Shown here in pieces: positions 4,086 through 31,351 of a stretch of 64,000 bases of DNA (position 1 is its first letter; each line of letters opens with the position of its first letter). Position numbers and translations under genes: made by a program. Origin of the DNA: Gammaproteobacteria bacterium (GTDB lineage Bacteria > Pseudomonadota > Gammaproteobacteria > Xanthomonadales > SZUA-36); the NCBI GenBank assembly GCA_021772935.1, contig JAJFLA010000046.1:248001-312000 (forward strand), in the 5' to 3' direction. The notes under the pieces were generated by a model, which saw nothing but the letters and a program-made list of their open reading frames with translations, had not been told where the DNA came from and did not search any database.

Positions 4086-4720
4086 GCTCCGACGGTTGAA
4101 TAAACGGCCGGTTGTACATTGCCGCGCTCAATGCAGTCGATCAGACTGATCGCTTTTTCTTCCATCGAGATAACGTATTCCGCCACCATTCCACGAAAAA
4201 ACCGATAGAAGAAATAGCTGGGTATCGCAACTGTCAACCCGGCAGCAGTGGTAATCAAAGCTTCCGAAATACCACCCGCCAGCACATTGGCATCACCAAC
4301 GCCGCTAATCATAATGGCGGAAAATACTTTGATCATACCAATCACGGTACCCAGCAAACCCAGAAGTGGGGATATGCCAGCGATGGTGCCAAGTGTGTTC
4401 AGGAACCGTTCCAGATCATGAACAACATGACGGCCGGTATCTTCAACGGCTTCCTTGATGACCTCTCTGGAGCGAGTTCGGTTACTTAAAGCAGACGCAT
4501 AAATGCGACCTAAGGGTGATTCGGTACGTAGTTGATTTAAATGACGTTGGTCCAGTTCATGCCTGGCTGCCCAGTCTTCAACTTTGCCGCCCAAGCCTTC
4601 CGGTGTCACTTTGCTTCGGCGCAATGTCCAGAAGCGTTCGATGATGATGGCGACCGACAAAGTCGAGCACAGCAAGATGGGTGCCATCAGCCAGCCACCG
4701 GCAAGAATAATTTCCAGCAC
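4082..4720 (-). CDS. exbB: ExbB/TolQ-family proton channel protein
   Basis: Multipass partner of the ExbD protein; together they form a PMF-driven channel in the inner membrane. The 212 residues show an N-terminal helix, a cytoplasmic loop, then the paired helices with LLGLLGTVIGMIKVF and ALITTAAGLTVAIPSYFFY typical of the MotA/TolQ/ExbB family. The GTG start at 4720 sits 9 bases after a good AAAGGAG ribosome site. The gene overlaps exbD and heads the exbB-exbD-msbA-lpxK-kdsB transcription unit. Upstream lies a tandem repeat rather than another gene. Confidence 0.93.
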   Translation of the reverse strand: MLEIILAGGWLMAPILLCSTLSVAIIIERFWTLRRSKVTPEGLGGKVEDWAARHELDQRHLNQLRTESPLGRIYASALSNRTRSREVIKEAVEDTGRHVVHDLERFLNTLGTIAGISPLLGLLGTVIGMIKVFSAIMISGVGDANVLAGGISEALITTAAGLTVAIPSYFFYRFFRGMVAEYVISMEEKAISLIDCIERGNVQPAVYSTVGA

Positions 4721-5177
4721 GCAGTTTCACTCCTTTGATTAATCTGTGCAGAATAATACCTTATGTTCAGGATGAACGGTACGCCGCGGGCGCAAGGATG
4801 CGCAAGAGCGGTGCATGTTCAGGAGGCGGTGAGACCAGGAACTGGTCGAGAGGCTGGCCTGGGCCATGAACGGTACGCCGCGGGCGCAAGGATGCGCAAG
4901 AGCGGTGCATGTTCAGGAGGAGGTGAGACCAGGAACTGGTCGAGAGGCTGGCCTGGGCCATGAACGGTACGCCGCGGGCGCAGGGATGTGCTCGACTGCA
5001 AGGAAGCAGGAGGTACTAGCCCATGGATGGGCGAAGGTAGAACAATGCAGGAGCAATTGTCGAGAGCACCAAAAGTAGGCGCTCTAGGCGACGCAGGAGC
5101 AGTTGCCGAGGAACGGTGCATGTCAGGCTCGCTCGGCATCACCAGGGTGCCGAACATTATTTAATGCAAGAGGAAAT
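4721..5177. other. Intergenic region between exbB and comEC, no gene seen
   Basis: Beyond the 94-bp tandem repeat it holds a weaker duplication (gcaggagcaattgtcgag near 5045 and gcaggagcagttgccgag near 5093). Open frames here are repeat artefacts with no family resemblance. The exbB ribosome site is at 4731-4737. Confidence 0.7.
4772..4988. repeat. 94-bp tandem repeat, about 2.3 copies
   Basis: Units begin at 4772, 4866 and 4960 with atgaacggtacgccgcgggc; the third is cut off around 4988. The first two are nearly identical (one visible difference is aggcggtg versus aggaggtg). 94 is not a multiple of 3, so the reading frames that cross it are not conserved and it is not treated as coding. Confidence 0.9.
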
Positions 5178-7502: not shown

Positions 7503-7506
7503 TGAT

Positions 7507-7515
7507 CCCCCCCCC
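7507..7515 (-). promoter_or_regulatory. Nine-G run acting as the apparent ribosome site of comEC
   Basis: Nine C on the plus strand, read as nine G on the minus strand, end 4 bases before the TTG start of comEC. The run is the only purine-rich Shine-Dalgarno candidate there. Its length could vary by slippage. Confidence 0.5.
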
Positions 7516-7530
7516 TATCAATTAGTCACT

Positions 7531-8220
7531 CTAAAAAGGTTTCAGGCTCCCCATGTGTAGTTCAAATCGTTGATCCATCCTGGCGGCCAGACGCATATCG
7601 TGTGTTACCAGTATTAAGCTGGTATTGAGTGCAGTATTGAGTTCGAGCAATTGATCAAACACCTGGTTGGCGGTGCGTTCGTCAAGGTTACCAGTAGGTT
7701 CATCACCCAGTATACAGCCGGGGTTGCCAACCAGCGCCCGAGCCACTGCAGATCGTTGCCGCTCTCCACCTGATAGCTCACCGGGCTTATGATCCAGACG
7801 TTGACCCAGGCCCACTTTTTCCAGCAAATCAGTCGCCCGTTTGGTTGCTACTGTTATCGTTTCACCACGAATCAACAAGGGCATAGCCACGTTTTCCAGA
7901 GCCGTAAACTCAGGCAATAAATGGTGAAACTGGTAGACAAAACCCATACGGGAATTGCGTAAATTACTGCGTTCACGGTCGCTCATTTCCCATAACGACT
8001 GACCACCTACAAAAACCTCTCCCTCATCCGGCCTGTCCAGCCCGCCCAAAATATGCAGTAAGGTACTTTTACCGGCACCCGATGCACCGACAATGGCCAT
8101 CGACGTTCCCGCTGGCACCTGCAAGTTGACATGCTTCAACACCTGGATCCGTTTGGGACCCTGCCGGAACCCTCGACTGATGTCTGTTGTCCTGATTACC
8201 ATGCTGCCCTGCTCATTCAT
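7531..8220 (-). CDS. lolD: Lipoprotein-releasing system ATP-binding protein
   Basis: ATPase of the LolCDE complex, which extracts outer-membrane lipoproteins from the inner membrane and passes them to LolA. The 229 residues contain Walker A GASGAGKST (45-53), signature LSGGERQR, Walker B with ILGDEPTGNLD and the switch His in THD. It overlaps the upstream lolC/E gene by 8 bp, so the two are coupled. Only one permease gene accompanies it, so the complex may be built from one permease type (LolF-like) or the second may be elsewhere. Confidence 0.95.
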   Translation of the reverse strand: MNEQGSMVIRTTDISRGFRQGPKRIQVLKHVNLQVPAGTSMAIVGASGAGKSTLLHILGGLDRPDEGEVFVGGQSLWEMSDRERSNLRNSRMGFVYQFHHLLPEFTALENVAMPLLIRGETITVATKRATDLLEKVGLGQRLDHKPGELSGGERQRSAVARALVGNPGCILGDEPTGNLDERTANQVFDQLLELNTALNTSLILVTHDMRLAARMDQRFELHMGSLKPF

Positions 8221-9460
8221 AACGCAAGGCCTCAGCCGGATCGGTTTTGGACGCCCGCCACGCCGGGTAAAGCGTTGAAAGCAACGACATAGCCAGTGAC
8301 ATCAAAGTAAACGCGAAAACGTCTGCACGGCGTAAATCGGAAGGTAGCTCTGTAATGTAATAAATATCTGCCGGGAACAGGGCAAAGCCAAAAATTCGTT
8401 CCAGGAAGGGTACGACGGTGGCTATGTTTTGAGCCAGCAAAATGCCGCCAACCACACCCAAAGCTGTGCCAATAACACCGATCAGACTACCCTGAACCAC
8501 AAAAACCCGCATGATGGTACCCGCGTGCGCCCCCATGGTTTTAAGGATGGCGATATCAGACTGTTTGTCTGTTACAACCATCACCAGCATGGAAATGATA
8601 TTAAATGCCGCGACCGCAATTATTAATGACAAAATGACCCACATCACAGTCTTTTCAGTACGCACAGCCTGAAACAGATTGCCACGTTCCTGGCTCCAGT
8701 CCCTGACGCGGTAATTGCCCTCGAGTTGTTGCGAGATTTCACGCGCTACCCACCAGGCAGAGTCCAGATCTACCAGTTTCAGCCGGATACCTCCAATGGA
8801 CGCTTCTGGCATACGTAACAAGCGAGCAGCATCATTGATGTGCACCATGGCCAGTCCACTGTCATTCTCGTATTCACCAAACTCGAACATACCCACAACG
8901 GTAAAACGCCGCATCAGTGGACTGGCACCGAAAGGGCTGGCTTTTAGTCGCGGCGCAATGATCGTCACCTTGTCACCCAACCCAACCTGTAGTTTTATGG
9001 CCAGGCCGATACCAAGCACAATCCCATATTCACCACTATGTAAATCAGTCAGCTTTCCACTAACCATACTCGTGTCAACATCTGACACGGCGGTCTCATA
9101 AGCTGGTGCAATGCCACGCACCAACGCAGCACTCGAGCCGTTGGCCTGCAACCAGGCACCGACCTCAATGTAAGGTGCTGACGCAACCACGTCATCGCGA
9201 ACATTGACCCGTGCAATAAGCTCACGCCATTCATCCAGCGGCTTATCAAGCGGCTGGATGGTGGCATGGGAGATCGCACCCAGAATACGTGCACGTAGTT
9301 CTTTTTCAAAACCATTCATCACTGAGATCACCGTAATCAGCGTGGTCACACCCAGCGCAATACCCAACATGGATGTCAGGGAAATGAATGAAATAAAATG
9401 GTTTTGTCTTTTGGCCCCCAGGTAGCGCAGACCAATAAAGGCAGAAAGTGGTTTATACAT
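8213..9460 (-). CDS. lolC: Lipoprotein-releasing system permease, LolC/LolE family
   Basis: Transmembrane subunit of the lipoprotein-sorting exporter. The 415 residues show one N-terminal helix (about 24-46, in FISLTSMLGIALGVTTLI), a large periplasmic MacB-like domain, then three C-terminal helices, ending in YPAWRASKTDPAEALRYE, the normal family ending. The start is ATG at 9460. It precedes and overlaps lolD. The LolC versus LolE choice is not decidable by eye; the symbol follows usual practice for the gene next to lolD. Confidence 0.92.
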   Translation of the reverse strand: MYKPLSAFIGLRYLGAKRQNHFISFISLTSMLGIALGVTTLITVISVMNGFEKELRARILGAISHATIQPLDKPLDEWRELIARVNVRDDVVASAPYIEVGAWLQANGSSAALVRGIAPAYETAVSDVDTSMVSGKLTDLHSGEYGIVLGIGLAIKLQVGLGDKVTIIAPRLKASPFGASPLMRRFTVVGMFEFGEYENDSGLAMVHINDAARLLRMPEASIGGIRLKLVDLDSAWWVAREISQQLEGNYRVRDWSQERGNLFQAVRTEKTVMWVILSLIIAVAAFNIISMLVMVVTDKQSDIAILKTMGAHAGTIMRVFVVQGSLIGVIGTALGVVGGILLAQNIATVVPFLERIFGFALFPADIYYITELPSDLRRADVFAFTLMSLAMSLLSTLYPAWRASKTDPAEALRYE

Positions 9461-9556
9461 GTGTGGATTAGACCATAACGCAAAACCGGCAACCAGTTGA
9501 ATTTACCCGCTGGCGTGTAAGCATTTGTTGTCAACTCTCGCAATCGTAGGGTGAAC

Positions 9557-9623
9557 TAGTGCTCCTTACGGCAAAACCCCACTGGAGCGCTGAATCCGTA
9601 ATTATCATGTTGAAGGAGCACTA
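9557..9623. repeat. Dispersed intergenic repeat, copy 2, with perfect 11-bp inverted ends
   Basis: The left end TAGTGCTCCTT (9557-9567) is the exact inverse of the right end AAGGAGCACTA (9613-9623), 45 bp apart. The interior contains GGAGCGCTGAATCCGTAATT shared with copy 3 and, in part, with copy 1. The last three bases are the TAG stop of the rluC-type gene on the minus strand. The rest of the 9461-9620 gap shows no gene. Confidence 0.75.
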
Positions 9624-10550
9624 CACCAGTTTCTCAAGCAAATCATGTAATACCTGAGGTAGTTGTGAACTAACCAACTGTTGCTCCCCATCGCTGGTAT
9701 AAAACCGTAGCTGGTGAGCATGTAAAAACATTCGCTTGGCACCTTCTGCTTTCCAATGTTTCTGACGGGAAGCTGATGCATAACGGCTGTCAGCGACCAG
9801 TGGCGTACCCAGGTGAGCAGCGTGTACGCGAATTTGATGGGTACGCCCGGTATGCAATTGGGCTTCTGCAAAGCTGTAATCAGCATAATTTTGCAATAAC
9901 CGGAAGGTGGTGTGAGCAGGTTTACCCTCCGGGTCCACCCGCATCAAGCGTTGACCTGAGCGTTCGAATTTACCAATCGGCTCGTTCACTTCAAGCAAAT
10001 CCTGCTTTAGTTTCCCATCCATCAGGCACAGGTAACGCTTTTCAACCTGATTTTCCTTAATTTGTGTATTCAGTTCCCGTAAAGCATCGCCGTTAAGCGC
10101 CAATAGCAAACAACCACTGGTTTCACGGTCAAGGCGGTGGACAAGGTCCACGTTCATACCCGGTCGCATTTTGCGCACCACATCAACAACCCCCCAGGAA
10201 AGACCACTACCAGCATGAACCGCCATACCAGCAGGTTTATCGATAACCATGATTCCCTGGCTTTCATAGCATATTGACTGGCTAAGTAATTGCAGAACGG
10301 CTGGTGGTATAACTCCAGCTTTGTTCTCACGAACAGAAGCCGGTGGGATGCGAACACTGTCTCCCGTTTCAAGACGAGTAGCTGGCTTTGCTCTGCCACC
10401 ATTCACACGAACCTGACCGGTGCGTATCATTCTGTAAATAGCCGACCGCGGCGGCCCTTTTAGCTGCGCCATGAGGAAATTATCCAGTCGCTGGCCATCG
10501 CGATCCTGTGAAACTTCAACATGACTGACGGTTGAAATAACCTTATTCAT
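9621..10550 (-). CDS. rluC: Ribosomal large subunit pseudouridine synthase, RluC type
   Basis: Makes pseudouridines in 23S rRNA (positions 955, 2504 and 2580 in E. coli). An N-terminal S4 RNA-binding domain (RLDNFLMAQLKGPPRSAIYRMIRTGQVRVN) is followed by the RluA-family catalytic domain with HRLDRETSG carrying the catalytic Asp, and HTGRTHQIRVH. I start it at the ATG at 10550, giving 309 residues; an in-frame extension to 10571 adds seven residues unlike the family. It is divergent from rne, an arrangement shared with E. coli, which supports RluC over RluA or RluD. Confidence 0.93.
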   Translation of the reverse strand: MNKVISTVSHVEVSQDRDGQRLDNFLMAQLKGPPRSAIYRMIRTGQVRVNGGRAKPATRLETGDSVRIPPASVRENKAGVIPPAVLQLLSQSICYESQGIMVIDKPAGMAVHAGSGLSWGVVDVVRKMRPGMNVDLVHRLDRETSGCLLLALNGDALRELNTQIKENQVEKRYLCLMDGKLKQDLLEVNEPIGKFERSGQRLMRVDPEGKPAHTTFRLLQNYADYSFAEAQLHTGRTHQIRVHAAHLGTPLVADSRYASASRQKHWKAEGAKRMFLHAHQLRFYTSDGEQQLVSSQLPQVLHDLLEKLV

Positions 10551-18233: not shown

Positions 18234-19311
18234 ATTCATCAACGATGTGTTGAGCCACAGCCAACTAAGGTATGTTGGATTGATCATAAACTGTTTGCTA
18301 CTGAACGCCTGTGTCAGCGTAACTAAACCATCGAGTCCTTCCATACCATCGATTCCCAGTGCTTCACCGTCGAGTCCATCAAGTTCTCCAGCCAGCCCGC
18401 CTGGTTCACCGTCCAACCCGTCGAGTCCCTCACCATCCAACTCGCCACCTGCGTCTTCTAGCCCACGGCCTTCACCTCCAGCACCCCCCAGCGCTGCTAG
18501 CCCCGGGGCAATGGGTGACTTCCCACAAGGTGAAGCAGAACCGAACACACAAGATGATGACGAAGTACCAGACAACCAGGGGGACCCGGGTGCTGAGAAT
18601 CCGGATGGTAGCGTAGAAGAGTCAAACGGCAGCGAACTTGAGCCGGGTTTTGGAAGTGAGAGTGGCGATAATGACGGTTTGCCGGATCTTAGAGACGAAC
18701 CTTCACTGGAGGATACACTGGAATCTTTTGAGCATTCTACGGATCAAGCAGCTGGAGATGCTGGTGACTCAGGTGAGTCCAACAGCGGCAGCACAGGTAC
18801 AACCGGTGTGCAGAATAGGAGCTTAGAGACCAGACCGGGTGGGACCGCCGAAACTGGAAGCCGCGCTGGTGATGGATACGCTACCGGTGCGCGGACTTCG
18901 GCAGAGCAAACCAAAATCTTAAGTGATGAGTTGGAACGTCAAACCGGTGAATTTGACGCTATGATCCGTGATCAACAGGCAGCCCAGCGACGTGCAACAC
19001 GCCAGCAAACAACCATTCCTGACATGGCGACTGCCAGCGCTCAAAGTGATTCAGGGGACAGCACAGAAATAGATATCGATACCCATGAAACCAGCAGTGG
19101 TGGTGGTTTGGGTGGTCGTTCTGACACCACCGGCGGTGCAGGAATCCCTCAAAATACCGCCAAGTACCCGCCACCATCTGATATTCCTATGGGCAATGAC
19201 GATGACGTTGTTGCACGCCAGTTGCGAGAAGCGGCGATGCGCGAACCGGACCCTGAGCTTCGTCAAAAATTATGGCAGGAATATCGCAAGTACAAGGGCG
19301 TAAGTCATTGA
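18223..19311 (+). CDS. Lipoprotein with long Pro/Ser-rich and acidic linkers
   Basis: 362 residues with a lipoprotein signal ending at the lipobox LLNAC (Cys30), followed by about 60 residues almost entirely Ser and Pro, then an acidic Gly/Glu/Asp-rich stretch. The only folded-looking part is the C-terminal 50 residues (DDDVVARQLREAAMRE...LRQKLWQEYRKYK), which is helical and charged. It is likely a flexible tether from a membrane lipid to a partner in or across the periplasm. The ATG at 18223 lies inside the end of the preceding gene. Function unknown. Confidence 0.7.
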   Translation: MLNKFINDVLSHSQLRYVGLIINCLLLNACVSVTKPSSPSIPSIPSASPSSPSSSPASPPGSPSNPSSPSPSNSPPASSSPRPSPPAPPSAASPGAMGDFPQGEAEPNTQDDDEVPDNQGDPGAENPDGSVEESNGSELEPGFGSESGDNDGLPDLRDEPSLEDTLESFEHSTDQAAGDAGDSGESNSGSTGTTGVQNRSLETRPGGTAETGSRAGDGYATGARTSAEQTKILSDELERQTGEFDAMIRDQQAAQRRATRQQTTIPDMATASAQSDSGDSTEIDIDTHETSSGGGLGGRSDTTGGAGIPQNTAKYPPPSDIPMGNDDDVVARQLREAAMREPDPELRQKLWQEYRKYKGVSH

Positions 19312-20516
19312 TAACACCCTACCGCATACTAGCGTTGATAATGATCTGTGCCACACTATCAGGCTGTGTCAGCCAGACCGTTAACAGCAATTCTGTAAGC
19401 AACATAAAAACCGCAGCCAGCAACATCGAAGAAGACCTGTTGCTTGATGTCGATATAGCCATTTTCGACCCGGGCCTGGAAAACTATGAAGAGGGCCAAC
19501 AGGTATACCCGGAAGTCCGCAACGCGGAAGCCAATTATCTACCTAAGTTGCTCGCAGAAACTTTGCAAAATAGCGCTGCCTGGGGTGCAGTGCGTGTGGT
19601 ATCTGTTGCCAACAAGATCGCTGATCTGGTGATTCAAAGTAAAATTCTTTACTCCGACGGTGAAACCATACGGTTACACGTCTCCGCGACTGACTCGCGG
19701 GGTCAACTATGGCTGAACAAGGAATATCAGGGCCATGCCAGCCGTTATGCCTATACAGAGACCAGCCGGGTTCACCAGGACCCCTTCCTTTCCGTTTACA
19801 ACAATATTGCCAATGACCTTTTTGACATCCAGCAACAACTGTCGCCCGAGAATCGGAAAAACATCCGGCTGATCAGTGAGTTGTTATTTGCCCGTAGTTT
19901 TTCAGCGGATGCTTTCGATGCCTACCTTGCCCAAAATCGTAAAGGCTTGTACCAGATTAAACGTCTACCAGCAGAGGATGATCCTATGCTCGAAAGAGTC
20001 CGTAGTATCCGCGACCGGGATCTGTTGTTCATTGATACCATGCAGGAGTTCTTCATCAGTTTTAACGAAGAAATGCTCGAACCCTACCAGGAATGGCGCA
20101 AACTGAGTTATGAAGAGGCCATCGCGCTACGAGAGCTGAAAACCGAGAGCAGACGTCGTTTGATCGGTGGCGGTCTTGCCGTATTGGCAGGAATTGTCGG
20201 CGCTAGCGGCAATAGCAATGTCGGTCGTGTGGCGAGCAGCGTTGCCATTGTCGGTGGTGGCATGATGCTCAAAAGTGGCATGGAAAAACGCAACGAAGCT
20301 GAAATGCATGCAGAGTCACTGGAGGAATTAGGACAATCTTTAGGCGCGGAGATCACACCACAGGTCATAGAGCTACAAGACCGCACCGTTACTCTAAGTG
20401 GTACCGTGGAAGACCAATACACCCAGTGGCGCGAACTATTGGCTGAAATATATCGTTCGGAAATGGGCGATTTGGAACGACCCGACACAGTTGTCGATAC
20501 AGCCAATCCACGTTAA
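19308..20516 (+). CDS. Periplasmic lipoprotein, unknown function
   Basis: I propose the TTG at 19308 as start: AAGGG lies 9 bases upstream, TTG overlaps the TGA of the previous gene, and it gives a compact lipoprotein signal (MITPYRILALIMICATLSGC, Cys20). An ATG at 19272 would add 12 unlikely residues. About 402 residues. The first domain (about 35-150) looks like proteins that sense or modify envelope stress by a small alpha/beta fold, but I cannot name it. A Gly-rich hydrophobic stretch (GGGLAVLAGIVGASG and following) lies in the last third. The neighbours suggest a structural part of one envelope complex. Confidence 0.65.
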   Translation: MITPYRILALIMICATLSGCVSQTVNSNSVSNIKTAASNIEEDLLLDVDIAIFDPGLENYEEGQQVYPEVRNAEANYLPKLLAETLQNSAAWGAVRVVSVANKIADLVIQSKILYSDGETIRLHVSATDSRGQLWLNKEYQGHASRYAYTETSRVHQDPFLSVYNNIANDLFDIQQQLSPENRKNIRLISELLFARSFSADAFDAYLAQNRKGLYQIKRLPAEDDPMLERVRSIRDRDLLFIDTMQEFFISFNEEMLEPYQEWRKLSYEEAIALRELKTESRRRLIGGGLAVLAGIVGASGNSNVGRVASSVAIVGGGMMLKSGMEKRNEAEMHAESLEELGQSLGAEITPQVIELQDRTVTLSGTVEDQYTQWRELLAEIYRSEMGDLERPDTVVDTANPR

Positions 20517-20546: not shown

Positions 20547-22076
20547 ATGTCTTCCCACAACGAGCAAATAGAACCCACCGGATTTGATACCCCGGATAAT
20601 TCCATTCCAGGTTCACTATCGGCCAGCTCGGGTAGTCGTACGAATGGAACGCCAGCCTGGGTATTGCCGATGCTGATGGTGCTGCTGGTGGCGGTTATTG
20701 GTGTTGTGTTCTGGCTACCGGGTCGTTTCAACCAGCAACCGATAGTTACATCGTCTAGTGCTGAACCTGTGTCTTCAACTTCTGTGGCAACAACTGACAG
20801 ACGTCAGGTAGCTGAGGTGGAGACCTCGCCGTGGTCAGACGCGCAAATGGCCAAACTACGCAAACAGGCCCAGGATGTCCTGACCGAGTTATTGGAAGCG
20901 CAATCCACATTGGAACAGCTTGAGGTAGTGCAATGGGCCGCAGAGGACTTTGCAGATGCAGGGGCACACGCTGCTGCTGGAGATATTGACTATCGTGAAC
21001 GGCGTTTTGAAGCAGCTCGTGTGAACTATGAAAAAGGCCTTGACGAACTACGAACCTTGCTAGAAATGTTTCCGCAGGTATTGAGAGATAATCTGGCTCG
21101 TGCGCATCAGGCGATAGATGCCGGTCAGAAAGAGACGGCTCAAGCCGCCTTGTTGATTGCAACTGCAATCGAAGCAGACAACGCAGAACTAGCCAGCTTG
21201 AAACAACGTGCGGCAGTAATGGAACAACTGTTGTCCTTATTGGCGCAGGCTGAGGAAGCAACAGCATCCTCTGAGCTCGCACTGGCTGTGCAATTATTGC
21301 AACAAGCCGTTGCACTGGATCCCCAATCCCATGCGGCCCAGTCTGAATTGGAGGTTGTGAGCAAGGCGTATACCAGGCAACGCTTCAATAAGGCGATGAG
21401 TGATGGCTACCTGGCGCTTAATATGACTCAATTTGATCGGGCAAGGTCAGCCTTCAAACAGGCGGCACAATTGGTAACTAATTCGGCAGTGGCAGCAAGC
21501 GCCCTGGATGATGTAAATACGGCCGAGACAACACAACGCCTTTCAGATCTGCAAGCCAAAGGCCAAGGCCATGTATCACAAGAGCAATGGGCAAAAGCAG
21601 TATCTGTTTTCGAACAAGCTTTGCAAATTGATGCCGGTCTGATGTTCGCCCAACAAGGTTTGAAAAGCAGCCAGGTACGTAACCATCTGGGTCAACAACT
21701 TCAGAGTGCGATTGAACAGCCCGAACGTCTGTCTGAAAAGGGCGTAGCAGAAGCCATTGCAAAATTGTTACGCTCGGCGGCCGAAATCAGTCCTCGTGGC
21801 CCTTTATTACAACAACGAATAACACAGTTGGAACTTGTGCTTAGAAGAGCCAACACACCCATTCATGTGAGCTTGCGTTCAGATATGGAAACCGAGGTAA
21901 GCTTACGCAAAGTTACTCACCTGGGTCGATTTCAGGAACATGAGTTGAGTCTGCGACCAGGCACCTACACCGCCGTTGGCAGCCGCGATGGCTACCGTGA
22001 CGTGCGGGTTACTTTTACTATCCAGCACGACACCGAGACAGCCACCGTAACCATCACCTGTACGGAACAGATATAG
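20547..22076 (+). CDS. Single-pass membrane protein with TPR-like repeats and PEGA-like tail
   Basis: 509 residues. A cytoplasmic Pro/Ser-rich N-terminus of about 36 residues is followed by one helix (37-57, WVLPMLMVLLVAVIGVVFWL), placing the rest in the periplasm. Residues about 85-410 are Ala/Gln/Leu-rich helical repeats with TPR character (for example QEQWAKAVSVFEQALQIDAG). The last 80 residues (HVSLRSDMETEVSL...LRPGTYTAVGSRDGYRDVRV) look like a PEGA beta domain. It ends 7 bp before the PEGA/FGE gene. Probably a periplasmic scaffold that binds peptidoglycan or partner proteins; no enzyme motif is visible. Confidence 0.72.
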   Translation: MSSHNEQIEPTGFDTPDNSIPGSLSASSGSRTNGTPAWVLPMLMVLLVAVIGVVFWLPGRFNQQPIVTSSSAEPVSSTSVATTDRRQVAEVETSPWSDAQMAKLRKQAQDVLTELLEAQSTLEQLEVVQWAAEDFADAGAHAAAGDIDYRERRFEAARVNYEKGLDELRTLLEMFPQVLRDNLARAHQAIDAGQKETAQAALLIATAIEADNAELASLKQRAAVMEQLLSLLAQAEEATASSELALAVQLLQQAVALDPQSHAAQSELEVVSKAYTRQRFNKAMSDGYLALNMTQFDRARSAFKQAAQLVTNSAVAASALDDVNTAETTQRLSDLQAKGQGHVSQEQWAKAVSVFEQALQIDAGLMFAQQGLKSSQVRNHLGQQLQSAIEQPERLSEKGVAEAIAKLLRSAAEISPRGPLLQQRITQLELVLRRANTPIHVSLRSDMETEVSLRKVTHLGRFQEHELSLRPGTYTAVGSRDGYRDVRVTFTIQHDTETATVTITCTEQI

Positions 22077-22083
22077 ACCGGCA

Positions 22084-24138
22084 ATGACGGATCAATCCCC
22101 TCTGACGGAACCCATCGAGCCACTGGCCTTCGAGCCACTGGCAGTCGGTAATGACAAGCGACGACGCGGCTTCAATCCATGGCGCTGGCTCCTGTTGGCA
22201 ACTGTTTTGGCCTTTGTTGCCATCATGAGTTTTCTGTTGAGTGCTCGATCAGTTCAAATAACAGTTCAGGCTGAGAGCGATGTTGACATCACACTTGACG
22301 GCGGCTGGTATCTGTCATTTGGTGAGCGCTATCTGTTACATCGCGGCCGTTACCAGGCCTCGGTTACCGCAGCAGGTTATTACCCTATTGATAGCGTCAT
22401 TAATGTCAGCGCTGAAGAGACACAGCTGGTACAACTGACGTTACGCCCGCTACCTGGCAGGCTGGATGTCGCTTCGCAACCCAGTGACGCAAAAGTGCTC
22501 ATTGACGGTGATCTGATTGGGAAAACACCAGTAAAAGCCAAGCCGGTACAGGCTGGACAACATCATTTGCGTATCGACAAAGCACGCTACCTGCCGCTGG
22601 AAAAGGAAATATCGATCCATGGGCGTGATATACAGCAGCAATTGGTGCTTCCACTTGAGCCCGCGTGGGCGGAGATCAGCATCGATAGTCAGCCACAAGG
22701 TGCGATCATACTGGTTGATGGTGAGGTTCAGGGGCGCACACCCGCAGTGGTGGAAATGCTGCAAGGAGAGCGTCAGCTAATATTGCAAAAAGAAACCTAT
22801 TCCGATTCACAACAAACGCTGATCATCGTTGCCAGTGAGAAGCAGGATCTGGGTAGACTGACACTACAAGCGGCCGCCGGTACGGTTCACTTGGTGAGTG
22901 TTCCAGGCCAGGCAAATGTGACCGTAGATGGTGAGTTTCGTGGTCAGACACCACTCAAGCTGACACTTAGCCCAGGACAACAACACACGCTGGCTGTATT
23001 TAAACCGGGTTACCAGCACTACACCAGCGAACTTGAACTAAGCGCTGGTACCCACCACAACCGTCGTGTTGAGCTGTTGCCACACCTGGGGGAGGTGCAC
23101 TTCAATATTGAGCCTCAAACAGCCATATTGATGATCGATGGTCAAGCACAGGGACAGGGCTCACGTCGTCTGGAATTGCCCGCAACTGAGCACAGCGTGG
23201 AAGTAGTATTAGAAGGCTATGCCAGCGTACATCGAAAGGTCACACCCCGTACCGGCCTGCAACAGGTGGTAACGGTCACGCTGGTGACTGAGCGTGAGGC
23301 ACAATTGTCAAAGCTCAAGCCAGAAGTGAACACTTTATTGGGTCAAACCTTGTTATTGTTCACACCGGACGACTTCATCATGGGAGCTTCGCGCCGGGAA
23401 CCTGGTCGCCGCCCCAATGAAGTGTTGCACCCGGTTTCTCTCAGCCGTATGTTTTACCTGCAGACAACCGAAATCACCAATGCAGAATTTCGTATTTTCC
23501 TGGCATCGCACAGTTCCGGTCAAATTGAAGCCAACAGCCTGAACCGTGAGCACCAACCCGTGGTGCAAGTCAGCTGGCAACAGGCAGCACAGTTCTGTAA
23601 CTGGCTTAGTACGAAAGAAGGGCTGACACCCTTTTACAGACAAGCCAAAGGAATCGTGACCGGTTACAACCGCGATGCTATCGGTTATCGCCTGCCGACC
23701 GAAGCTGAATGGGCATGGGCAGCAAGAGTACAAGCAGACCTGCTGTTGAAGTTTCCCTGGGGCGAATCCTTCCCACCGACCGAGGCTGTCGAAAACTATG
23801 CCGACAGAGGTTCGGCCCATGTCACTGGTCGTGTTCTGAATAAGTATCAGGACGGGCATGTGGTGAGTGCCACTGTAGGATCTTATCCAGCCAACAAAAA
23901 AGGCCTCTACGATATGGGTGGCAATGTGGCCGAATGGGTCCACGATGTATATCTCACAGCCTCGAGTGATGCGATCGGTCCGGCAGACCCAACCGGACCA
24001 CAATCCGGTGACAATTACGTCATACGTGGTGCTAGTTGGGCACATAGCAGAATTTCTGAATTACGTCTGTCGTTCCGTGATTACGGGCAAGCCGGTCGTG
24101 ATGACGTAGGCTTTCGTATTGCACGGTATGTGGAGTAA
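22084..24138 (+). CDS. PEGA-repeat membrane protein with C-terminal sulfatase-modifying-factor (FGE) fold
   Basis: 684 residues: short cytoplasmic tail, one helix (34-53), about four PEGA repeats (about 125-410; each has an IDG or VDG turn followed by GKTP, GRTP or GQTP), then an FGE/SUMF1-type domain (about 422-684) with FIMGASRREPGRRPNE, RLPTEAEWAWAAR, GGNVAEWVHD and a GFRIARY ending. The catalytic Cys pair of formylglycine-generating enzymes is absent from the ending region (RGASWAHSRISELRLSFRD), so I expect a binding role rather than sulfatase activation. The whole domain architecture faces the periplasm and follows the TPR/PEGA gene directly. Confidence 0.85.
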   Translation: MTDQSPLTEPIEPLAFEPLAVGNDKRRRGFNPWRWLLLATVLAFVAIMSFLLSARSVQITVQAESDVDITLDGGWYLSFGERYLLHRGRYQASVTAAGYYPIDSVINVSAEETQLVQLTLRPLPGRLDVASQPSDAKVLIDGDLIGKTPVKAKPVQAGQHHLRIDKARYLPLEKEISIHGRDIQQQLVLPLEPAWAEISIDSQPQGAIILVDGEVQGRTPAVVEMLQGERQLILQKETYSDSQQTLIIVASEKQDLGRLTLQAAAGTVHLVSVPGQANVTVDGEFRGQTPLKLTLSPGQQHTLAVFKPGYQHYTSELELSAGTHHNRRVELLPHLGEVHFNIEPQTAILMIDGQAQGQGSRRLELPATEHSVEVVLEGYASVHRKVTPRTGLQQVVTVTLVTEREAQLSKLKPEVNTLLGQTLLLFTPDDFIMGASRREPGRRPNEVLHPVSLSRMFYLQTTEITNAEFRIFLASHSSGQIEANSLNREHQPVVQVSWQQAAQFCNWLSTKEGLTPFYRQAKGIVTGYNRDAIGYRLPTEAEWAWAARVQADLLLKFPWGESFPPTEAVENYADRGSAHVTGRVLNKYQDGHVVSATVGSYPANKKGLYDMGGNVAEWVHDVYLTASSDAIGPADPTGPQSGDNYVIRGASWAHSRISELRLSFRDYGQAGRDDVGFRIARYVE

Positions 24139-24141
24139 AAC

Positions 24142-24441
24142 ATGCACAGCTCATCCAGATTTAAACATCCACTCAGCCTTATCCTGTTGATACTGCTATT
24201 GACTGTAGGTGGCTTGTCACTGGCAGCACAAAAGGCTGAAGATCCGGCTGACAGCGAGCAGACGCCTGCCAGTCAACAGCAATACAATGAGAATACGCCA
24301 ACCATGCCGTCTGTCCCTGATGCCGACAACGACCCCGCTGCGGCTCCCGAAGTCAAAAAAGCAGACAGCGATGTTTTCGATTACCAGCCTTCGGAGAAAA
24401 TCTCCGAAGACCTGTCAGTATCGTTCCCTGTAGATATTTAG
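24142..24441 (+). CDS. Small secreted protein
   Basis: 99 residues: a signal peptide (about 1-30, with LSLILLILLLTVGGLSLAAQ) and an acidic Gln/Ala/Pro-rich mature part without Cys. It starts 3 bp after the PEGA/FGE stop and ends just before the channel-subunit gene. Not recognised. Its place suggests a small accessory of the MotA/TolQ-like protein. Confidence 0.6.
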   Translation: MHSSSRFKHPLSLILLILLLTVGGLSLAAQKAEDPADSEQTPASQQQYNENTPTMPSVPDADNDPAAAPEVKKADSDVFDYQPSEKISEDLSVSFPVDI

Positions 24442-24450
24442 GACATGAAC

Positions 24451-25248
24451 ATGAAACACAATCTGTCTTCCGAATTTATTTTTCAGCTATTTGCACTGCT
24501 GATTACGATCGTTGTTGTGCACGCTGTTTACGTCGGGATCATCCGACCAAGTGCGAATGCACAGTTGCAGCATCAAATGGAACGACAGCTTGCCGGCGAA
24601 GACTTCGTGCCTGAACGCAGCCTGGCCGTAGTGGTTCGTGATTACGAGCAGGAGACCTGTTTTATCTTGTTATTTTGGGCCTTGGCCATTATGGGCTACA
24701 AAGGCCGCCTGTCCCTGCAGGAGAAAGCCATTCATCGTCAGGGCCTGCTGGAGATACCCGACGGAACCAGTGTATTACCACAGGATGCGCGCGAGTACAG
24801 CCGTTCATTGGAGGCATTGCCGCGTACAGAGCAAAACTTTCTATTGCCGAGAACATTGCTTTCAGGTTTGCAACGTTTTGCCACCACGGCAAGTATCCAG
24901 GCGGTGTCCACCACCATCAAGGAACAATGTGAGCTGGAATCGGACCGTCTCGATTCGGAGTTATCGATGGTCCGCTACATCGCGTGGGCAATCCCATCTA
25001 TCGGTTTCATCGGTACTGTACGTGGTATCGGTGATGCCCTGGGTCAAGCTTATAAGGCTGTCGAGGGGGATATCACCGGTGTGACAATCAGCCTTGGTGT
25101 GGCCTTTAATAGCACCTTTGTTGCACTGGTTCTGAGCATCATCATCATGTTTTGTCTGCATCAGTTGCAGTTGTCACAAGAGCGCGTTGTGCTGGATTGC
25201 CAGCGTTATGCTGATCAACGTCTTTTAAGTCACCTGGAGGTCCATTGA
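24451..25248 (+). CDS. MotA/TolQ/ExbB-like proton channel subunit
   Basis: Predicted inner-membrane stator-type channel protein. I choose the ATG at 24451, 7 bases after AGGA; another ATG at 24445 has almost no spacing. About 265 residues. From the upstream ATG, helices lie near 12-33, 70-85, 176-194 and 212-239. The last two match the family core: SIGFIGTVRGIGDALG corresponds to the LGTVxGI motif and GVTISLGVAFNSTFVALVLSI to the second pore helix. A roughly 90-residue cytoplasmic loop with Arg and Glu lies between helices 2 and 3. Its likely partners are the two VWA proteins encoded downstream, which carry ExbD/MotB-like helices. Confidence 0.82.
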   Translation: MKHNLSSEFIFQLFALLITIVVVHAVYVGIIRPSANAQLQHQMERQLAGEDFVPERSLAVVVRDYEQETCFILLFWALAIMGYKGRLSLQEKAIHRQGLLEIPDGTSVLPQDAREYSRSLEALPRTEQNFLLPRTLLSGLQRFATTASIQAVSTTIKEQCELESDRLDSELSMVRYIAWAIPSIGFIGTVRGIGDALGQAYKAVEGDITGVTISLGVAFNSTFVALVLSIIIMFCLHQLQLSQERVVLDCQRYADQRLLSHLEVH

Positions 25249-25250
25249 AC

Positions 25251-26516
25251 ATGAGTGTAGCCTTGCTCGACATCAATGACTGCAACCTGCAGTTGTGGCA
25301 TGGCGAGCAATTGTTGCAAAGCCCTGGGTACGCATTACTGGAGGGCGAACAATACCGTTTTGGCATGCCAGCCTGCAGTGTGGCAAGACTACGCCCCAGG
25401 GATATTAATAGCCGTTACTGGTGGCAACTCAATACCAAAGCCCTGAAAAACTCACTGGGCCCGGCCAGACACACAGCAGATCTCGTGCATGCCCACTTGC
25501 TGGAAATTCACGAACTAGCCGGACAACCAGAAGAACTGATACTTGTAGCCCCCTCCAGTATGCAACGAGAACAACTGTCCCTGTTGCTCGGTATTATTCA
25601 GCAATGTCCGTTCAACGCCGTGGGTCTGATCAACCGGAGCGTTGCCCTGGCGAGCCTATATGGCGGGCCAGGTAAGTTCTATCACCTTGAGATTCAGTTA
25701 CACCAAGCCGTCATTTCCGAGTTGAGCAACGATAATGGCAGGGTCGAACTGCAAAAGGTGTCGCCCTTGCCTGGTTGCGGATGGTTGCAACTTCAAGAGC
25801 ATTTGGTGGGCATCATTGCCCGGGTTTTTATCCGCCAAACCCGCTTCGACCCACGCCGCAAAGCAGAAACCGAGCAGTGCTTGTATGACCAGGTACCTGG
25901 CCTGCTGGGTGCTCTGGAAAACCAGGGGGAATACCAGCTGGAAATAGCGGGTTACCGCGCATCTGTCAGCCGCAGTGATTTGCTGGCCGCGACCGAGTCC
26001 TTGCGACAAAGTATCACCGTTGCCATCGGTACCCCAGATCCAGATGAGCGTATCATTCTGGAGCCACTGGCAGGATCTTTACCCGGCTTTTTTGAACAGT
26101 TTTCAGCAGCGGAGCGAATCGCTGACCAAGCCTTGTTGCAGGCGGTAAAACAGCACCAACCCTTGCTCTTACAACGCGAGCAGACACTAAATTTCGTTAC
26201 TTCGCTACCAAGTTTGACCCCGGTAACGTCACCACCAAGCGTAAGCTTGATCGCAGATAAGCACCCGCACCAGGCAGTGACACCAACCCACATGCTGGAG
26301 TGTGGCCGTGCAACACTGTTGACCGTCGATGGCATGAAGGTGGACTTGAAATGTGAATTGTACTGCCACGATGGTCATTGGCAACTGCGTGGTGACAAGC
26401 TAGAGACTGTGCGTGTCAATGGCCTTGCCTATGAGTCCGGCCAGGTATTGTATAGCGGCGATAAACTATCCACGGCGACAGGTCGTGACATTTCCCTGAT
26501 CGAAGTAGTGGGCTGA
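25251..26516 (+). CDS. Degenerate Hsp70/actin-like protein with FHA-like C-terminus
   Basis: About 421 residues from the ATG at 25251 (GGAGG 10 bases upstream); a TTG at 25245 overlapping the previous stop is an alternative. No signal peptide, so cytoplasmic. The start (VALLDINDCNLQLWHG...SPGYALL) and the middle (FYHLEIQLHQAVISEL...DPRRKAETEQCLYDQVP) fit an Hsp70-like ATPase fold, but the usual acidic and Gly-rich phosphate motifs are eroded, so ATP binding is doubtful. The last 75 residues (CELYCHDGHWQLRG...VRVNG...GQVLYSGDKLS) resemble an FHA beta sandwich. It may be the cytoplasmic regulator of the channel and VWA proteins. Function inferred only from fold impressions. Confidence 0.6.
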   Translation: MSVALLDINDCNLQLWHGEQLLQSPGYALLEGEQYRFGMPACSVARLRPRDINSRYWWQLNTKALKNSLGPARHTADLVHAHLLEIHELAGQPEELILVAPSSMQREQLSLLLGIIQQCPFNAVGLINRSVALASLYGGPGKFYHLEIQLHQAVISELSNDNGRVELQKVSPLPGCGWLQLQEHLVGIIARVFIRQTRFDPRRKAETEQCLYDQVPGLLGALENQGEYQLEIAGYRASVSRSDLLAATESLRQSITVAIGTPDPDERIILEPLAGSLPGFFEQFSAAERIADQALLQAVKQHQPLLLQREQTLNFVTSLPSLTPVTSPPSVSLIADKHPHQAVTPTHMLECGRATLLTVDGMKVDLKCELYCHDGHWQLRGDKLETVRVNGLAYESGQVLYSGDKLSTATGRDISLIEVVG

Positions 26517-26518
26517 TT

Positions 26519-27610
26519 ATGGCCCGGAAAAAGCGTTCATTCACGAATTTCAGTCTGAGCTTTCTGGACATCATGGCCTGTGGTTTCGGTGCCATTATCC
26601 TGGTTTTTTTGTTAATCGATCACTCCATCGAAGTGGTTTCAAATGATATTAACCAACACCTTTTATCCGAGGTAAACCTGCTCAAAGAGGACATTACCCT
26701 GGGCCAGAAAAATCTTGTGCGTTTACGCAACACACTTTCAGAAGTTGATTTGCAAATGGTCGATGCGTACGGCCGCGCCACACGTATCAACGAAGAACTG
26801 GAGAGTTTTGAGGCCCTGATCAAAGCCTTGCAGCGGGACGGACTAACTGATCAGGCTGACATTGAAGCCCTTAAGGCTGAAATTCAATCCCTGCAAGAGG
26901 AACTGACCAAGCTGCAACTAAACGCCGAGCAAGACACAGGTAACAGCGCCCGCAGCTTTATCGGTGAAGGTAATCGCCAATACCTGACTGGTCTCAATCT
27001 CGGTGGTCGATACATTGTAATTCTGCTCGATGTATCTGCCAGTATGTTGGATGATAAACTAATTAATATCATTCGTTTACGTAATATGTCTGAGGATATA
27101 CAACGTCAATCCAGCAAATGGAACCGTACATTGAATAGCGTTAACTGGTTAACCGCTCAGTTGCCGCTTGCCAGCCATTACCAGGTGATCACTTTTAATA
27201 CTCAGGCTGCTCCCGTGCTACCGGCAACACAGGGAAAGTGGCTCGAAGTTGCCGACAAGAATCAGTTGGAAAAAGTATCAACTAAATTACGCAAGCTGAC
27301 GCCGAGCGGTGGCACCAGTCTTGAAAATGCCTTTCGTGCCCTGGGCGAATTGTCACCCAGCCCCGACAATATTTTTCTTATTACTGACGGACTACCTACC
27401 CAGGGTGCCAGTCAGCCTCGGGGTACGACCATCAGCGGCCGTGAGCGGCAAAAGTTATACCGGCAGGCAATCAAACTGTTACCACGCAATGTACCCGTCA
27501 ATATCATCCTTGCCCCGATGGAAGGAGACCCCATGGCTGCCTCCGAATTCTGGCAACTCGCCCAGGTGAGCAAGGGTTCTTTCATGAGCCCCTCAAGAGA
27601 TTGGCCCTGA
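26519..27610 (+). CDS. Membrane-anchored VWA protein 1 with ExbD/MotB-like helix
   Basis: 363 residues. A short basic N-terminus leads into one helix (about 13-33) with Asp17 at its start in SFLDIMACGFGAIIL; an Asp at this spot is the proton carrier in ExbD, TolR and MotB. Residues about 44-136 form a coiled coil. The C-terminal half is a von Willebrand factor A domain with an intact metal site: DVSAS (171-175), the Thr in SGGTSL, and ITDG. It should be periplasmic. It starts 2 bp after the Hsp70-like gene and overlaps the second VWA gene (TGATG). Proposed role: the B-type subunit of a stator, with VWA in place of a peptidoglycan-binding domain. Confidence 0.82.
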   Translation: MARKKRSFTNFSLSFLDIMACGFGAIILVFLLIDHSIEVVSNDINQHLLSEVNLLKEDITLGQKNLVRLRNTLSEVDLQMVDAYGRATRINEELESFEALIKALQRDGLTDQADIEALKAEIQSLQEELTKLQLNAEQDTGNSARSFIGEGNRQYLTGLNLGGRYIVILLDVSASMLDDKLINIIRLRNMSEDIQRQSSKWNRTLNSVNWLTAQLPLASHYQVITFNTQAAPVLPATQGKWLEVADKNQLEKVSTKLRKLTPSGGTSLENAFRALGELSPSPDNIFLITDGLPTQGASQPRGTTISGRERQKLYRQAIKLLPRNVPVNIILAPMEGDPMAASEFWQLAQVSKGSFMSPSRDWP

Positions 27611-28605
27611 TGTCCAGGCGCACCACACCTGAAGTGTTTGGTCTGTCGTTTCTCGATGTGATCTCTTGTGGTTTCGGTGCGATCATCTTGTTACTGATCA
27701 TTACCAAGACGGTTCAGCCGCAAATTATTGAGGCTTCGACAGTCCGACTGGACGGTCGGGTCGCAGCTTTGCGGGAGCAGTTGATGGAGATCAGGGGCGA
27801 AACCAAAGTCCTCAACCGTGATTTGAATGCAAAACACGAGCAGTTATCCCAGCAGCAACAGCGGATTGCAATTTTAAGAGGCCATCTGGCCAGCGCCAGA
27901 TCTCAGCATGACACTCTGAACCTCAATACCAATGCTAATGACATTATTACCGGTCAATTGGCGATTGCCAGACAAGCGCTATCGGAAGAGATGAAACGCC
28001 TGCTAGGGACCCAGTACATGTCGAAAAATAATCTGATAGGTGGCATACCGGTCGACAGCGAATACATTATTTTTGTAATAGATACCTCCGGTTCCATGTT
28101 CTCTTATAGTTGGGAACGTATGTTGCAGGAATTGGAGGCGACATTGAGAATATATCCAAAGGTCAAGGGAATCCAGGTACTCAATGACATGGGTAAGTAC
28201 ATGTTCAGTCGTTACCGCGGTAAATGGATTCCAGATACACCCGGCCGCCGCCAGGTCATTTTACAAACCCTGCGCACCTGGAACGTGTTCAGTAACTCCA
28301 GCCCGGTCGAAGGTATCACCCAGGCCATCAGGAGTTTCCACGAACCGGGTAAAAAAATCAGTGTTTATGTTTTTGGTGACGAGTTTACCGGGGATTCCAT
28401 CGCCGATGTCGTCAACACGGTGGACCGGATTAACCAGGCTGACGCCGAAGGTAACCGGCTGGTACGCATACATGCCGTGGGCTTCCCGGTACAGTTTATC
28501 CGGGCTCCGCATATGCAAACTACAGGTATTCGCTTTGCCACACTGATGCGAGAACTCACTTATCGTAATGGAGGAACTTTTGTTGGCCTTAATGATTTTC
28601 GCTAA
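27610..28605 (+). CDS. Membrane-anchored VWA protein 2 with ExbD/MotB-like helix
   Basis: 332 residues from the ATG at 27610, which overlaps the stop of VWA 1. Same plan: helix about 12-32 with Asp16 in SFLDVISCGFGAIILLLI, coiled coil about 45-130, and a VWA domain with DTSGS (158-162). The Thr of the metal site is less clear than in protein 1 (NSSPVEG in place of GGTSL), so metal binding may be weaker. The N-terminal 30 residues closely resemble protein 1, while the VWA domains have diverged, which argues for an old duplication and possibly a heterodimer. Confidence 0.82.
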   Translation: MSRRTTPEVFGLSFLDVISCGFGAIILLLIITKTVQPQIIEASTVRLDGRVAALREQLMEIRGETKVLNRDLNAKHEQLSQQQQRIAILRGHLASARSQHDTLNLNTNANDIITGQLAIARQALSEEMKRLLGTQYMSKNNLIGGIPVDSEYIIFVIDTSGSMFSYSWERMLQELEATLRIYPKVKGIQVLNDMGKYMFSRYRGKWIPDTPGRRQVILQTLRTWNVFSNSSPVEGITQAIRSFHEPGKKISVYVFGDEFTGDSIADVVNTVDRINQADAEGNRLVRIHAVGFPVQFIRAPHMQTTGIRFATLMRELTYRNGGTFVGLNDFR

Positions 28606-29239
28606 AACTCGAACGCTGGCAGCCACAACAACCTGGCTAAGTATCCTGTTATTGATCAGCGCGTGTGGTACCAGACAAGTACTGGTACAGGGTCAGTTTC
28701 CAACACCCGTGATGGATAGAGTGCCAATAACGCTCGGTGTTTGGTATGAGGATGAATTTTCAAACCATGTGTTTTTCGATGAAACAAAAAGCAAATCCGA
28801 GGCGGATTGGATTGTGGAAACAGGTCCGGCCCAGGTGGCCATGTGGAATACGCTGCTTGCTGGAATGTTTGAAAACCTGGTCCATATACAAGCTCGCCCC
28901 AGTGCTGACAGTCAGAGCCCTTTAGTCGATGCAATACTAATCCCCCATGTTGAGGAGTTACAGTACACTCTTCCCAGTCAGACCAATGTCAACGTATACG
29001 AAATCTGGTTGCGTTACCGTTTTGAAGTGGTCAGCACTCGTGGTGAGGCAATTGCTGAGTTATCCATGACCGCCTACGGCAAGACCCCTACCGCCTTTTT
29101 AAAAAATAGCGAAAAAGCCATTAATCTCGCGGCAATCATGGCCCTTCGGGATGCTGGCGCCCATTTTGCACTCAATTTTTCCCATGAGCCGGCACTTCAG
29201 CAATGGTTACATCAATTTGGGACGACAGAGCTTGATTAA
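28592..29239 (+). CDS. Lipoprotein, unknown function
   Basis: About 215 residues. The signal peptide ends in the lipobox LLISAC. Start choice is uncertain: GGAGGA at 28569-28574 favours a TTG at 28583, while the ATG at 28592 gives a normal signal; an ATG at 28568 overlaps the previous gene by 38 bp. The mature part begins with VPITLGVWYEDEFSNHVF, has a two-layer alpha/beta look, and contains EIWLRYRFEVVSTRGEAIAEL, a pattern seen in several outer-membrane-linked lipoproteins. I cannot name the family. Fifth from last domain type of the operon that is anchored by lipid. Confidence 0.62.
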   Translation: MIFAKTRTLAATTTWLSILLLISACGTRQVLVQGQFPTPVMDRVPITLGVWYEDEFSNHVFFDETKSKSEADWIVETGPAQVAMWNTLLAGMFENLVHIQARPSADSQSPLVDAILIPHVEELQYTLPSQTNVNVYEIWLRYRFEVVSTRGEAIAELSMTAYGKTPTAFLKNSEKAINLAAIMALRDAGAHFALNFSHEPALQQWLHQFGTTELD

Positions 29240-29900
29240 TCCACCTCACAGACTGCTGCCAATTACCACTACGATCATGCTACTCAGCGGTTGTGTGACC
29301 GCAACTGTCGATGAGATGGTTTTCAACGAACCCACTGCCGGTATTGGAAATTCAACCGTGGTCATCCTGGGCCGGCGTCAAGCCAGTGACCAGGATACTG
29401 AACTGAGCTTTGTCGAGTGTGTCGGCAAACACATATCAAGTCGGGATAAATCCATCATCGTATTGGGAGAGTTGGATTTTATTGACGCGCTGTACCCCTG
29501 GTTTGAACCACGCACTGCACCCTTGCGCCCTACAGCACTTAAAAAGTTGATGCAACGCCGACCGGTGGCACAAAAAATGGCTGAGCTCAATACCGAATAC
29601 ATGATCTGGATTAATGGCAACACCGAACGGACCCATTCAATGAGTTCTATGTCTTGCACCCTGAGTCCTGCTGGTGGTGGCTGTTTCGGTTTTTCACATT
29701 GGAGCGACGAATCTAATTATGAAGCCGTGATCTGGAACTTTACAGATATGGCTGAGGTCGGTCGTGTTAGCACCAACGCCAGCGGTCAGTCTTATATGCC
29801 TGCAATTTTCATCCCCATTCCCATTATTGCGCCGGTCAAGGGAACTGCCTGTAATGGTATTGGAGATCAACTGCTGAAGTTCCTGTCCGCTCATTATTGA
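29232..29900 (+). CDS. Lipoprotein, unknown function
   Basis: I favour the TTG at 29232, which overlaps the end of the preceding gene and gives a short lipoprotein signal (MINPPHRLLPITTTIMLLSGC, Cys21). The frame is open up to an ATG at 29151, but that would put 27 non-signal residues in front. About 222 residues. Mature region: FNEPTAGIGNSTVVILGRRQ, one Cys pair region (SMSCTLSPAGGGCFGFS) that could form a disulfide, and a Pro/Ile-rich ending. Not recognised. Third case in this operon of a lipoprotein start nested in the upstream stop. Confidence 0.58.
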   Translation: MINPPHRLLPITTTIMLLSGCVTATVDEMVFNEPTAGIGNSTVVILGRRQASDQDTELSFVECVGKHISSRDKSIIVLGELDFIDALYPWFEPRTAPLRPTALKKLMQRRPVAQKMAELNTEYMIWINGNTERTHSMSSMSCTLSPAGGGCFGFSHWSDESNYEAVIWNFTDMAEVGRVSTNASGQSYMPAIFIPIPIIAPVKGTACNGIGDQLLKFLSAHY

Positions 29901-29911
29901 TGGAGGTAAAC

Positions 29912-31351
29912 ATGGACAGAATCGGCAACAGGTTTTCTGGGTTTCCAGGCATGCTATGCAAACTTGCTGTGATGGTTGCCTGTGTCAGTCAGCCACTGAT
30001 AGGTGATGCGGATGCTTTGTTGTTCTCAGCCAAAAAAGAAAAGTCCGTTGGCCGTGAAATGCACAATGAAATGATGGCCGAAGGTGCAGCCTACGACAAT
30101 CAGGCTTTACAGGATTATGTAAATCGCATCGGTCAGAGCCTGGTAGCCAATAGTGACCGCCCCAAGTTTCCGTTTACCTTTACCGTTCTTGATAATCCAG
30201 ATATCAACGCGTTCGCAACCCCGGGTGGATATATCTATATCAATCGGGGTCTGATGGCCTATCTGGATAATGAGGCAGAGCTGGCGGGTGTAATTTCTCA
30301 CGAAATTGGCCATATTACCGCTCGCCACCCATCACGTCAGAAGACAGCCAATGTAAGCAATAAAACTTTGGGCTTCCTGGCCTATGTTTTCACTGGCAGC
30401 CGGGATGTCGCGGAGGCAGCCTCCATGGCAGGTACTGCGCTGGTTCGGGGTTACGGTAGAGAACACGAACTGGAAGCCGATGGTCTGGGTGCCCGTTATA
30501 TGCACGCGACCGGATATGATCCCTACGTGTTGCTGGACGTGATCGGAGTGCTCAAACGCCAGGAACAGTTCCAACGCCTGAAAGCCAGGTCTTCTGGTAA
30601 GCAGCTCGGTAGTTATCATGGTCTGTACTCGACCCATCCAAGGAATGATGCCCGTCTGCAACAGGTGATTCGAACCTCGGGAGAATTGGATCAAACCACA
30701 CAGGACCCTTCACGCCCTGGTGAGTTCAAGCAACAAATGGAAGGTCTGGCCTGGGGCGCGAGTTCCCAGAATCAACGATCAGATGATCGCTATTACCATA
30801 ACAAGCTGGGTTTCACTTTGATCCAACCGCAAGGCTGGGATGTGAAGGCGGGTTCAAAGGCTATCGTGGCAAGTTCCAGTGCCGCTGATAGCTCTCTGAC
30901 CATTAGTGTACGTAAGCTTGATAACAGTATTAAACTGCGTAAAGTGTTGGAAAACAATGTAACCGGCAGTTTATCCGCCGGTAAAGAACTCGACCAGACT
31001 GGATTGCTTGGATATACCGCCGTTGCCAGCATCAATACTGATTCCCGACGGGTGGCTGCGATAAACTACAAAAACATCACCTATCTGTTTGAAGGCAAAG
31101 CCTCTGATTTTGCCAACGCGGACAAAACCCTTTTAAGTATGGTCGAAAGTTTCCGTCCCATACACCCGAATGAACGGCAAACCGGTAAACCCCATTTCAT
31201 CCACTACATTCAGGTTCCACGTGGTGCCACACTGGCGAGTCTTGCGGTCGGTATCCGCATCCCTGATGCAGAAAGCCGTTTACGTTTATTAAATGGTTTT
31301 TATCCACGTGGAGAGCCTCGAACCGGGGACTGGATCAAGGTGATTCGTTAA
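29912..31351 (+). CDS. M48-family periplasmic metalloprotease
   Basis: Zinc metallopeptidase related to BepA/LoiP-type proteases of outer-membrane quality control. The ATG at 29912 has GGAGG 7 bases upstream; 479 residues. Signal peptide about 1-35; zinc motif HEIGH (130-134) in VISHEIGHITARHP; third ligand in the REHELEADGLGARY segment. The second half carries a domain with GFTLIQPQGWDVK and a C-terminal LysM-like stretch (PRGATLASLAVGI...LRLLNGFYP...GDWIKVI). Last gene of the operon, so it may mature or proofread the complex built by the upstream genes. Confidence 0.88.
   Translation: MDRIGNRFSGFPGMLCKLAVMVACVSQPLIGDADALLFSAKKEKSVGREMHNEMMAEGAAYDNQALQDYVNRIGQSLVANSDRPKFPFTFTVLDNPDINAFATPGGYIYINRGLMAYLDNEAELAGVISHEIGHITARHPSRQKTANVSNKTLGFLAYVFTGSRDVAEAASMAGTALVRGYGREHELEADGLGARYMHATGYDPYVLLDVIGVLKRQEQFQRLKARSSGKQLGSYHGLYSTHPRNDARLQQVIRTSGELDQTTQDPSRPGEFKQQMEGLAWGASSQNQRSDDRYYHNKLGFTLIQPQGWDVKAGSKAIVASSSAADSSLTISVRKLDNSIKLRKVLENNVTGSLSAGKELDQTGLLGYTAVASINTDSRRVAAINYKNITYLFEGKASDFANADKTLLSMVESFRPIHPNERQTGKPHFIHYIQVPRGATLASLAVGIRIPDAESRLRLLNGFYPRGEPRTGDWIKVIR

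Follow-up and report, generated by a model that had tools for sequence, protein, structure and literature searches.

Two neighbouring genes, VWA1 and VWA2, in a 64 000-nucleotide stretch of gammaproteobacterial DNA (the window) probably encode the B subunits, or axle, of a 5:2-type ion-driven inner-membrane motor, the ring of which would be formed by a TolQ-type protein encoded in the same cluster. This reading is favoured because the helix Asp is invariant, a TolQ-type gene lies in the cluster, its product keeps the pore Thr residues, no ExbD gene is near, the core operon is conserved, a second cassette of the same design exists, and published AlphaFold 3 (AF3) models agree with it. The arrangement of the genes, their conservation and their pairing are established for this locus. 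A prediction published in 2025 had put forward the same idea, and the locus is therefore, by its sequence features, a member of a kind already described, the predicted TPH-vWA pairs (PMC12204202), as far as the published description of these extends.

Two tandem VWA genes

An earlier note, made from the sequence of the window, had proposed two tandem VWA open reading frames with ExbD/MotB-like Asp helices, and both frames are present (Table 1). The N-terminal membrane helices, SFLDIMACGFGA in VWA1 and SFLDVISCGFGA in VWA2, each begin with Asp (D17 and D16 respectively). The stop codon of VWA1 overlaps the start codon of VWA2 (TGATG), which suggests that the two genes are translationally coupled.

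Table 1. Genes and codons of the VWA cluster, in window coordinates.
Feature	Position	Strand	Remarks
LPP20-like lipoprotein-like protein, conserved core partner	19272..20516	+	LPP20-like by appearance only
Membrane-anchored TPR protein, conserved core partner	20547..22076	+	
Membrane-anchored PEGA-repeat and FGE-like protein (PEGA-FGE), conserved core partner	22084..24138	+	PF08308, PF03781
Small protein, hydrophobic N-terminal stretch	24142..24441	+	no ExbD match
MotA/TolQ/ExbB-family (TolQ-type) protein, proposed ring	24445..25248	+	PF01618, E 2.1e-14, 53.8 bits (cut-off 22.9)
Cytoplasmic-looking protein, Hsp70/actin-type nucleotide-binding fold	25251..26516	+	no Pfam match
VWA1	26519..27610	+	363 aa; Asp helix ~12-34, coiled coil, VWA domain ~165-363
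Asp17 codon of VWA1, proposed proton carrier	26567..26569	+	
VWA2	27610..28605	+	331 aa, counted from the ATG overlapping the VWA1 stop; Asp helix, coiled coil, VWA-like domain
Asp16 codon of VWA2, proposed proton carrier	27655..27657	+	
Two lipoprotein-like genes and M48 peptidase (BepA-like), accessory	28568..31351	+	

The layout claimed for both proteins, with a coiled coil between the Asp helix and the VWA domain, was borne out. VWA1 matched the Pfam family VWA_2 above the cut-off (E 4.6e-9) and VWA2 matched VWA_3 only under the curated cut-off (E 0.0033). The predicted structure of VWA1 (mean pLDDT 73, low in the helical part) consists of a long helix (residues 13-106 and 112-142) and then a head modelled with a VWA fold; a sequence search of the PDB gave matches in the coiled-coil part only. 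The MIDAS residues of VWA1 are D171, S173, S175, T266 and D290, and the head of VWA2 carries D158, S160, S162, an SSP motif near residue 230 and D257. DxSxS is kept in both heads of this version of the pair, hereafter type 1. The copies are also diverged, as had been claimed, with 23% identity across 249 aa, and the type-1 pair is always kept.

Conservation of the Asp helix

The helix Asp was found in 226/226 homologues and is the sole strictly invariant position (184 distinct helices); the count used a pattern requiring Asp, and the number of proteins failing the pattern was zero. The Cys beside it is variable, being Ser, Val or Ala in some homologues. A lipoprotein signal was considered for the VWA proteins and rejected, because this Cys is unconserved and lies ahead of the hydrophobic stretch.

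All sampling was restricted to Pseudomonadota. A 40-aa helix model gave strong matches (E<1e-6) in 15/398 genomes, exactly two in each, and these lay ~1 kb apart in 14 of the 15 and on separate contigs in the other (G430). Five more genomes of the same search yielded weak, single matches, which look like chance. Judged by these searches the Asp helix itself is no chance match.

The Asp helices have no Pfam match to ExbD or MotB (E<=10), therefore homology to either is not established, and PF02472 (ExbD/TolR) did not match the full VWA proteins (E<=1). The VWA pair is thus not ExbD/TolR by sequence, though a comparable mode of action is proposed for it, and the ExbD/MotB-like reading of the earlier note is supported by the invariant Asp together with the properties of the neighbouring TolQ-type gene.

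The TolQ-type gene and the operon

The genes of Table 1 form a single run on the plus strand. The TolQ-type protein keeps both pore Thr residues, Thr191 and Thr224 aligning with those of the ExbB-type proteins of its own genome (the ExbB rows L002, L004 and L005 of the alignment are disregarded). Five ExbD genes were found in the genome, none of them within 20 kb of the VWA pair. An ordinary ExbB/ExbD pair is located at 3675-4720 of the window on the minus strand, ~20 kb from the VWA pair.

Co-occurrence of the helix motif with a TolQ/MotA homologue was assessed by fetching locus neighbourhoods and scanning them with home-made profiles. Both VWA genes were present in 80/80 GTDB loci, and the TolQ-type gene lay upstream in 71/71 loci reaching far enough (80 loci, named genomes). 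A second set, taken mostly from more distant genomes (L298 repeats one genome of the first), had the TolQ-type gene within the cluster in 45/46 decidable type-1 loci. The motif is therefore not one that occurs mainly without a TolQ-type gene, and the association holds. In two loci (L270 and L271) the gene has moved to the far side of VWA2 and is still in the cluster. The only decidable type-1 exception is L293 (G789:C5:6000-18000), where no TolQ-type gene was found in a contig of 36 kb; L270 and L271, with the gene after VWA2, come from sister genomes of L293.

The core operon conserved across classes comprises the LPP20-like, TPR, PEGA-FGE, TolQ-type, VWA1 and VWA2 genes. Haliea salexigens and Pseudohaliea rubra, both culturable, are among the relatives that carry the operon. 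Profiles of the gene with the Hsp70-type fold and of the three accessory genes of Table 1 matched nothing in the most distant relatives. The Hsp70/actin-type fold rests on a high-confidence model (pLDDT 92), and the phosphate-loop-like start of this protein (LLDINDCN) looks degenerate. PEGA-FGE, with the TPR and LPP20-like proteins, is the likeliest candidate for a partner of the VWA heads, since it is retained in the smallest clusters when other genes are lost.

A second, diverged version of the cassette

The same genome contains a second TolQ-type/VWA-pair cassette ~90 kb away and outside the window (L172, G000:C41:174000-192000; 3246-10451, minus strand), the VWA helices of which are STSAIDLFASALGAF and SLSAIDLFASAMGAF. 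The gene set of this version, type 2, is the VWA pair, FHA, TolQ-type, FHA and Ser/Thr kinase-FGE; in L172 these additional genes encode an FHA protein (recognized by eye), a second protein in which an FHA domain follows a membrane helix, and a fusion of a Ser/Thr kinase with an FGE-like domain. Because a model of the helix derived from just two type-2 sequences matched its own genome alone, searches were made with full-length sequences, and these detected type 2 in 28/200 genomes of the order, mostly as pairs. In a tree the sequences of VWA1, of VWA2 and of either type-2 protein fell into a single group each, type 1 was separated from type 2, and long branches leave the order of duplication unsure.

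A TolQ-type gene was present in 14/16 decidable type-2 loci, and was absent beside the pairs L194 (genome G035) and L201 (genome G176). Each of these genomes carries another type-2 pair, which adjoins a TolQ-type gene in G035 and ends at a contig edge in G176. It is possible that the pairs of L194 and L201 share one ring with the second pair.

The heads of the type-2 pair are asymmetric: the MIDAS motif is invariably kept in one of them and invariably missing from the other (17/17 each). This asymmetry bears on an unlikely alternative, in which the motor is the same and VWA1 and VWA2 are separate homodimeric axles that compete for the ring or share it. Homodimers must be possible in type 2, because there are single-VWA relatives whose cluster includes a TolQ-type gene (L265 and L263), but a type-1 member stands alone only at contig ends, and the MIDAS split fits a division of labour inside one dimer. 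The L265 cluster (4125-8816, minus strand) consists of a TolQ-type gene, an FHA gene, a gene for a PP2C-phosphatase-looking protein, one VWA gene and a gene whose protease-like product has a membrane helix.

A type-2-like helix was also found on proteins with a C-terminal part that has no VWA match (L262:7631-8323 and L268:1041-1769). The surroundings of L262 showed no TolQ-type gene, and the L268 locus is too short to decide on this neighbour. Since single-VWA and non-VWA heads carry a like helix, these sequences suggest that the Asp helix is a module on which heads can be exchanged. More tentatively, a wider class of ion-driven motors may be built on one exchangeable axle module (Asp helix and coiled coil, with paired VWA, single VWA or non-VWA heads); in its type-2 version the pair would be asymmetric, with one MIDAS-competent head, and FHA proteins and a Ser/Thr kinase that bears an FGE-like domain would control the motor.

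The combination of kinase, FHA, VWA and FGE-like domains also occurs in the regulation of type VI secretion, in the PpkA kinase (VWA) and TagR (FGE-like). The type-2 cassette keeps the same domain company, which is a lead only, and adds a TolQ-type ring; no type VI secretion genes were seen in the fetched type-2 region.

Proposed mechanism

In the axle reading, five TolQ-type subunits would encircle two helices, one from VWA1 and one from VWA2. Protons passing via D17 and D16 would turn or displace the pair, the coiled coils would transmit this motion to the two periplasmic VWA heads, and the heads may bind or pull a partner through the MIDAS metal site. The points against it are the missing Pfam match of the helix to ExbD/MotB and the loci without an adjacent TolQ-type gene (L293, L194, L201 and L262).

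Comparison with known systems

Williams-Jones et al. 2025 (PMC12204202, Fig. 4c-d) described TPH-vWA paired genes that adjoin tolQ, with no tolR or exbD; the motor is a prediction from genome comparison and AF3 models, in which the Asp helices sit inside a TolQ pentamer. Compared by this published description, the locus has the same features, namely a VWA domain after an N-terminal helix, an Asp without SHLS, a diverged pair, a TolQ-type neighbour and no tolR/exbD, and the proposal of an axle inside a TolQ pentamer is likewise shared. The text accompanying that description is without operon partners, a type-2 version, MIDAS asymmetry, or single-VWA or non-VWA heads. Added here are the core operon, the second, diverged cassette of this genome, the loss of MIDAS, and the variants with single-VWA or non-VWA heads.

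The same survey describes SHLS vWA transducers (PMC12204202, Fig. 4a-b), which are likewise membrane-tethered VWA proteins beside motor genes. According to the description these have a tolR pair and a His motif that binds the edge of the motor, and neither SHLS nor tolR/exbD is found here. That family, with its SHLS motif and conserved His, and the five ExbD genes of the genome would accord with VWA proteins acting as TolA/TonB-like transducers, the helix lying on the outside of the motor and an ExbD from elsewhere giving the pore helix. Such an arrangement is very improbable, as the Asp of the helix is invariant and the SHLS/His motif is absent from it in the 226 homologues, and the pair has no ExbD gene in its vicinity, nor did the published survey find one. 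Equally improbable is a reading in which the helices serve only to anchor the proteins in the membrane and the TolQ-type gene is a passenger of the operon; the lack of a profile match of the helix to ExbD/MotB speaks for it, but the charged membrane residue is kept in every homologue while the adjacent Cys varies, the TolQ-type gene is retained even when relocated (L270 and L271), and two diverged cassettes share the same combination.

The VWA pair has two likenesses to ExbD, TolR and MotB, the N-terminal Asp helix and a neighbouring ring gene of the MotA/TolQ/ExbB family. The difference lies in the part beyond the helix, an ExbD/TolR periplasmic or OmpA-like domain in those proteins and a VWA head here, with two different B proteins. 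In the type IX secretion system (T9SS) the FGE-like GldK works with a proton motor (PMC12635249). The GldLM/GldK system thus also combines a proton-driven motor with an FGE-like protein, which is an analogy only; the PEGA-FGE protein matched GldK below the cut-off (115 bits, cut-off 350). GldK is a ring lipoprotein, whereas the FGE-like protein here is anchored in the inner membrane, and there is no GldM-like protein.

If the axle reading is true, a VWA domain that binds metal would be driven directly by the proton-driven ring known from flagella, TonB transport and Tol, and one axle would bear two different heads. Concrete partners (PEGA-FGE, FHA and kinase) and natural variants (a lost MIDAS, a single VWA or other heads) are provided by the operon and the second version, and make the published prediction testable.
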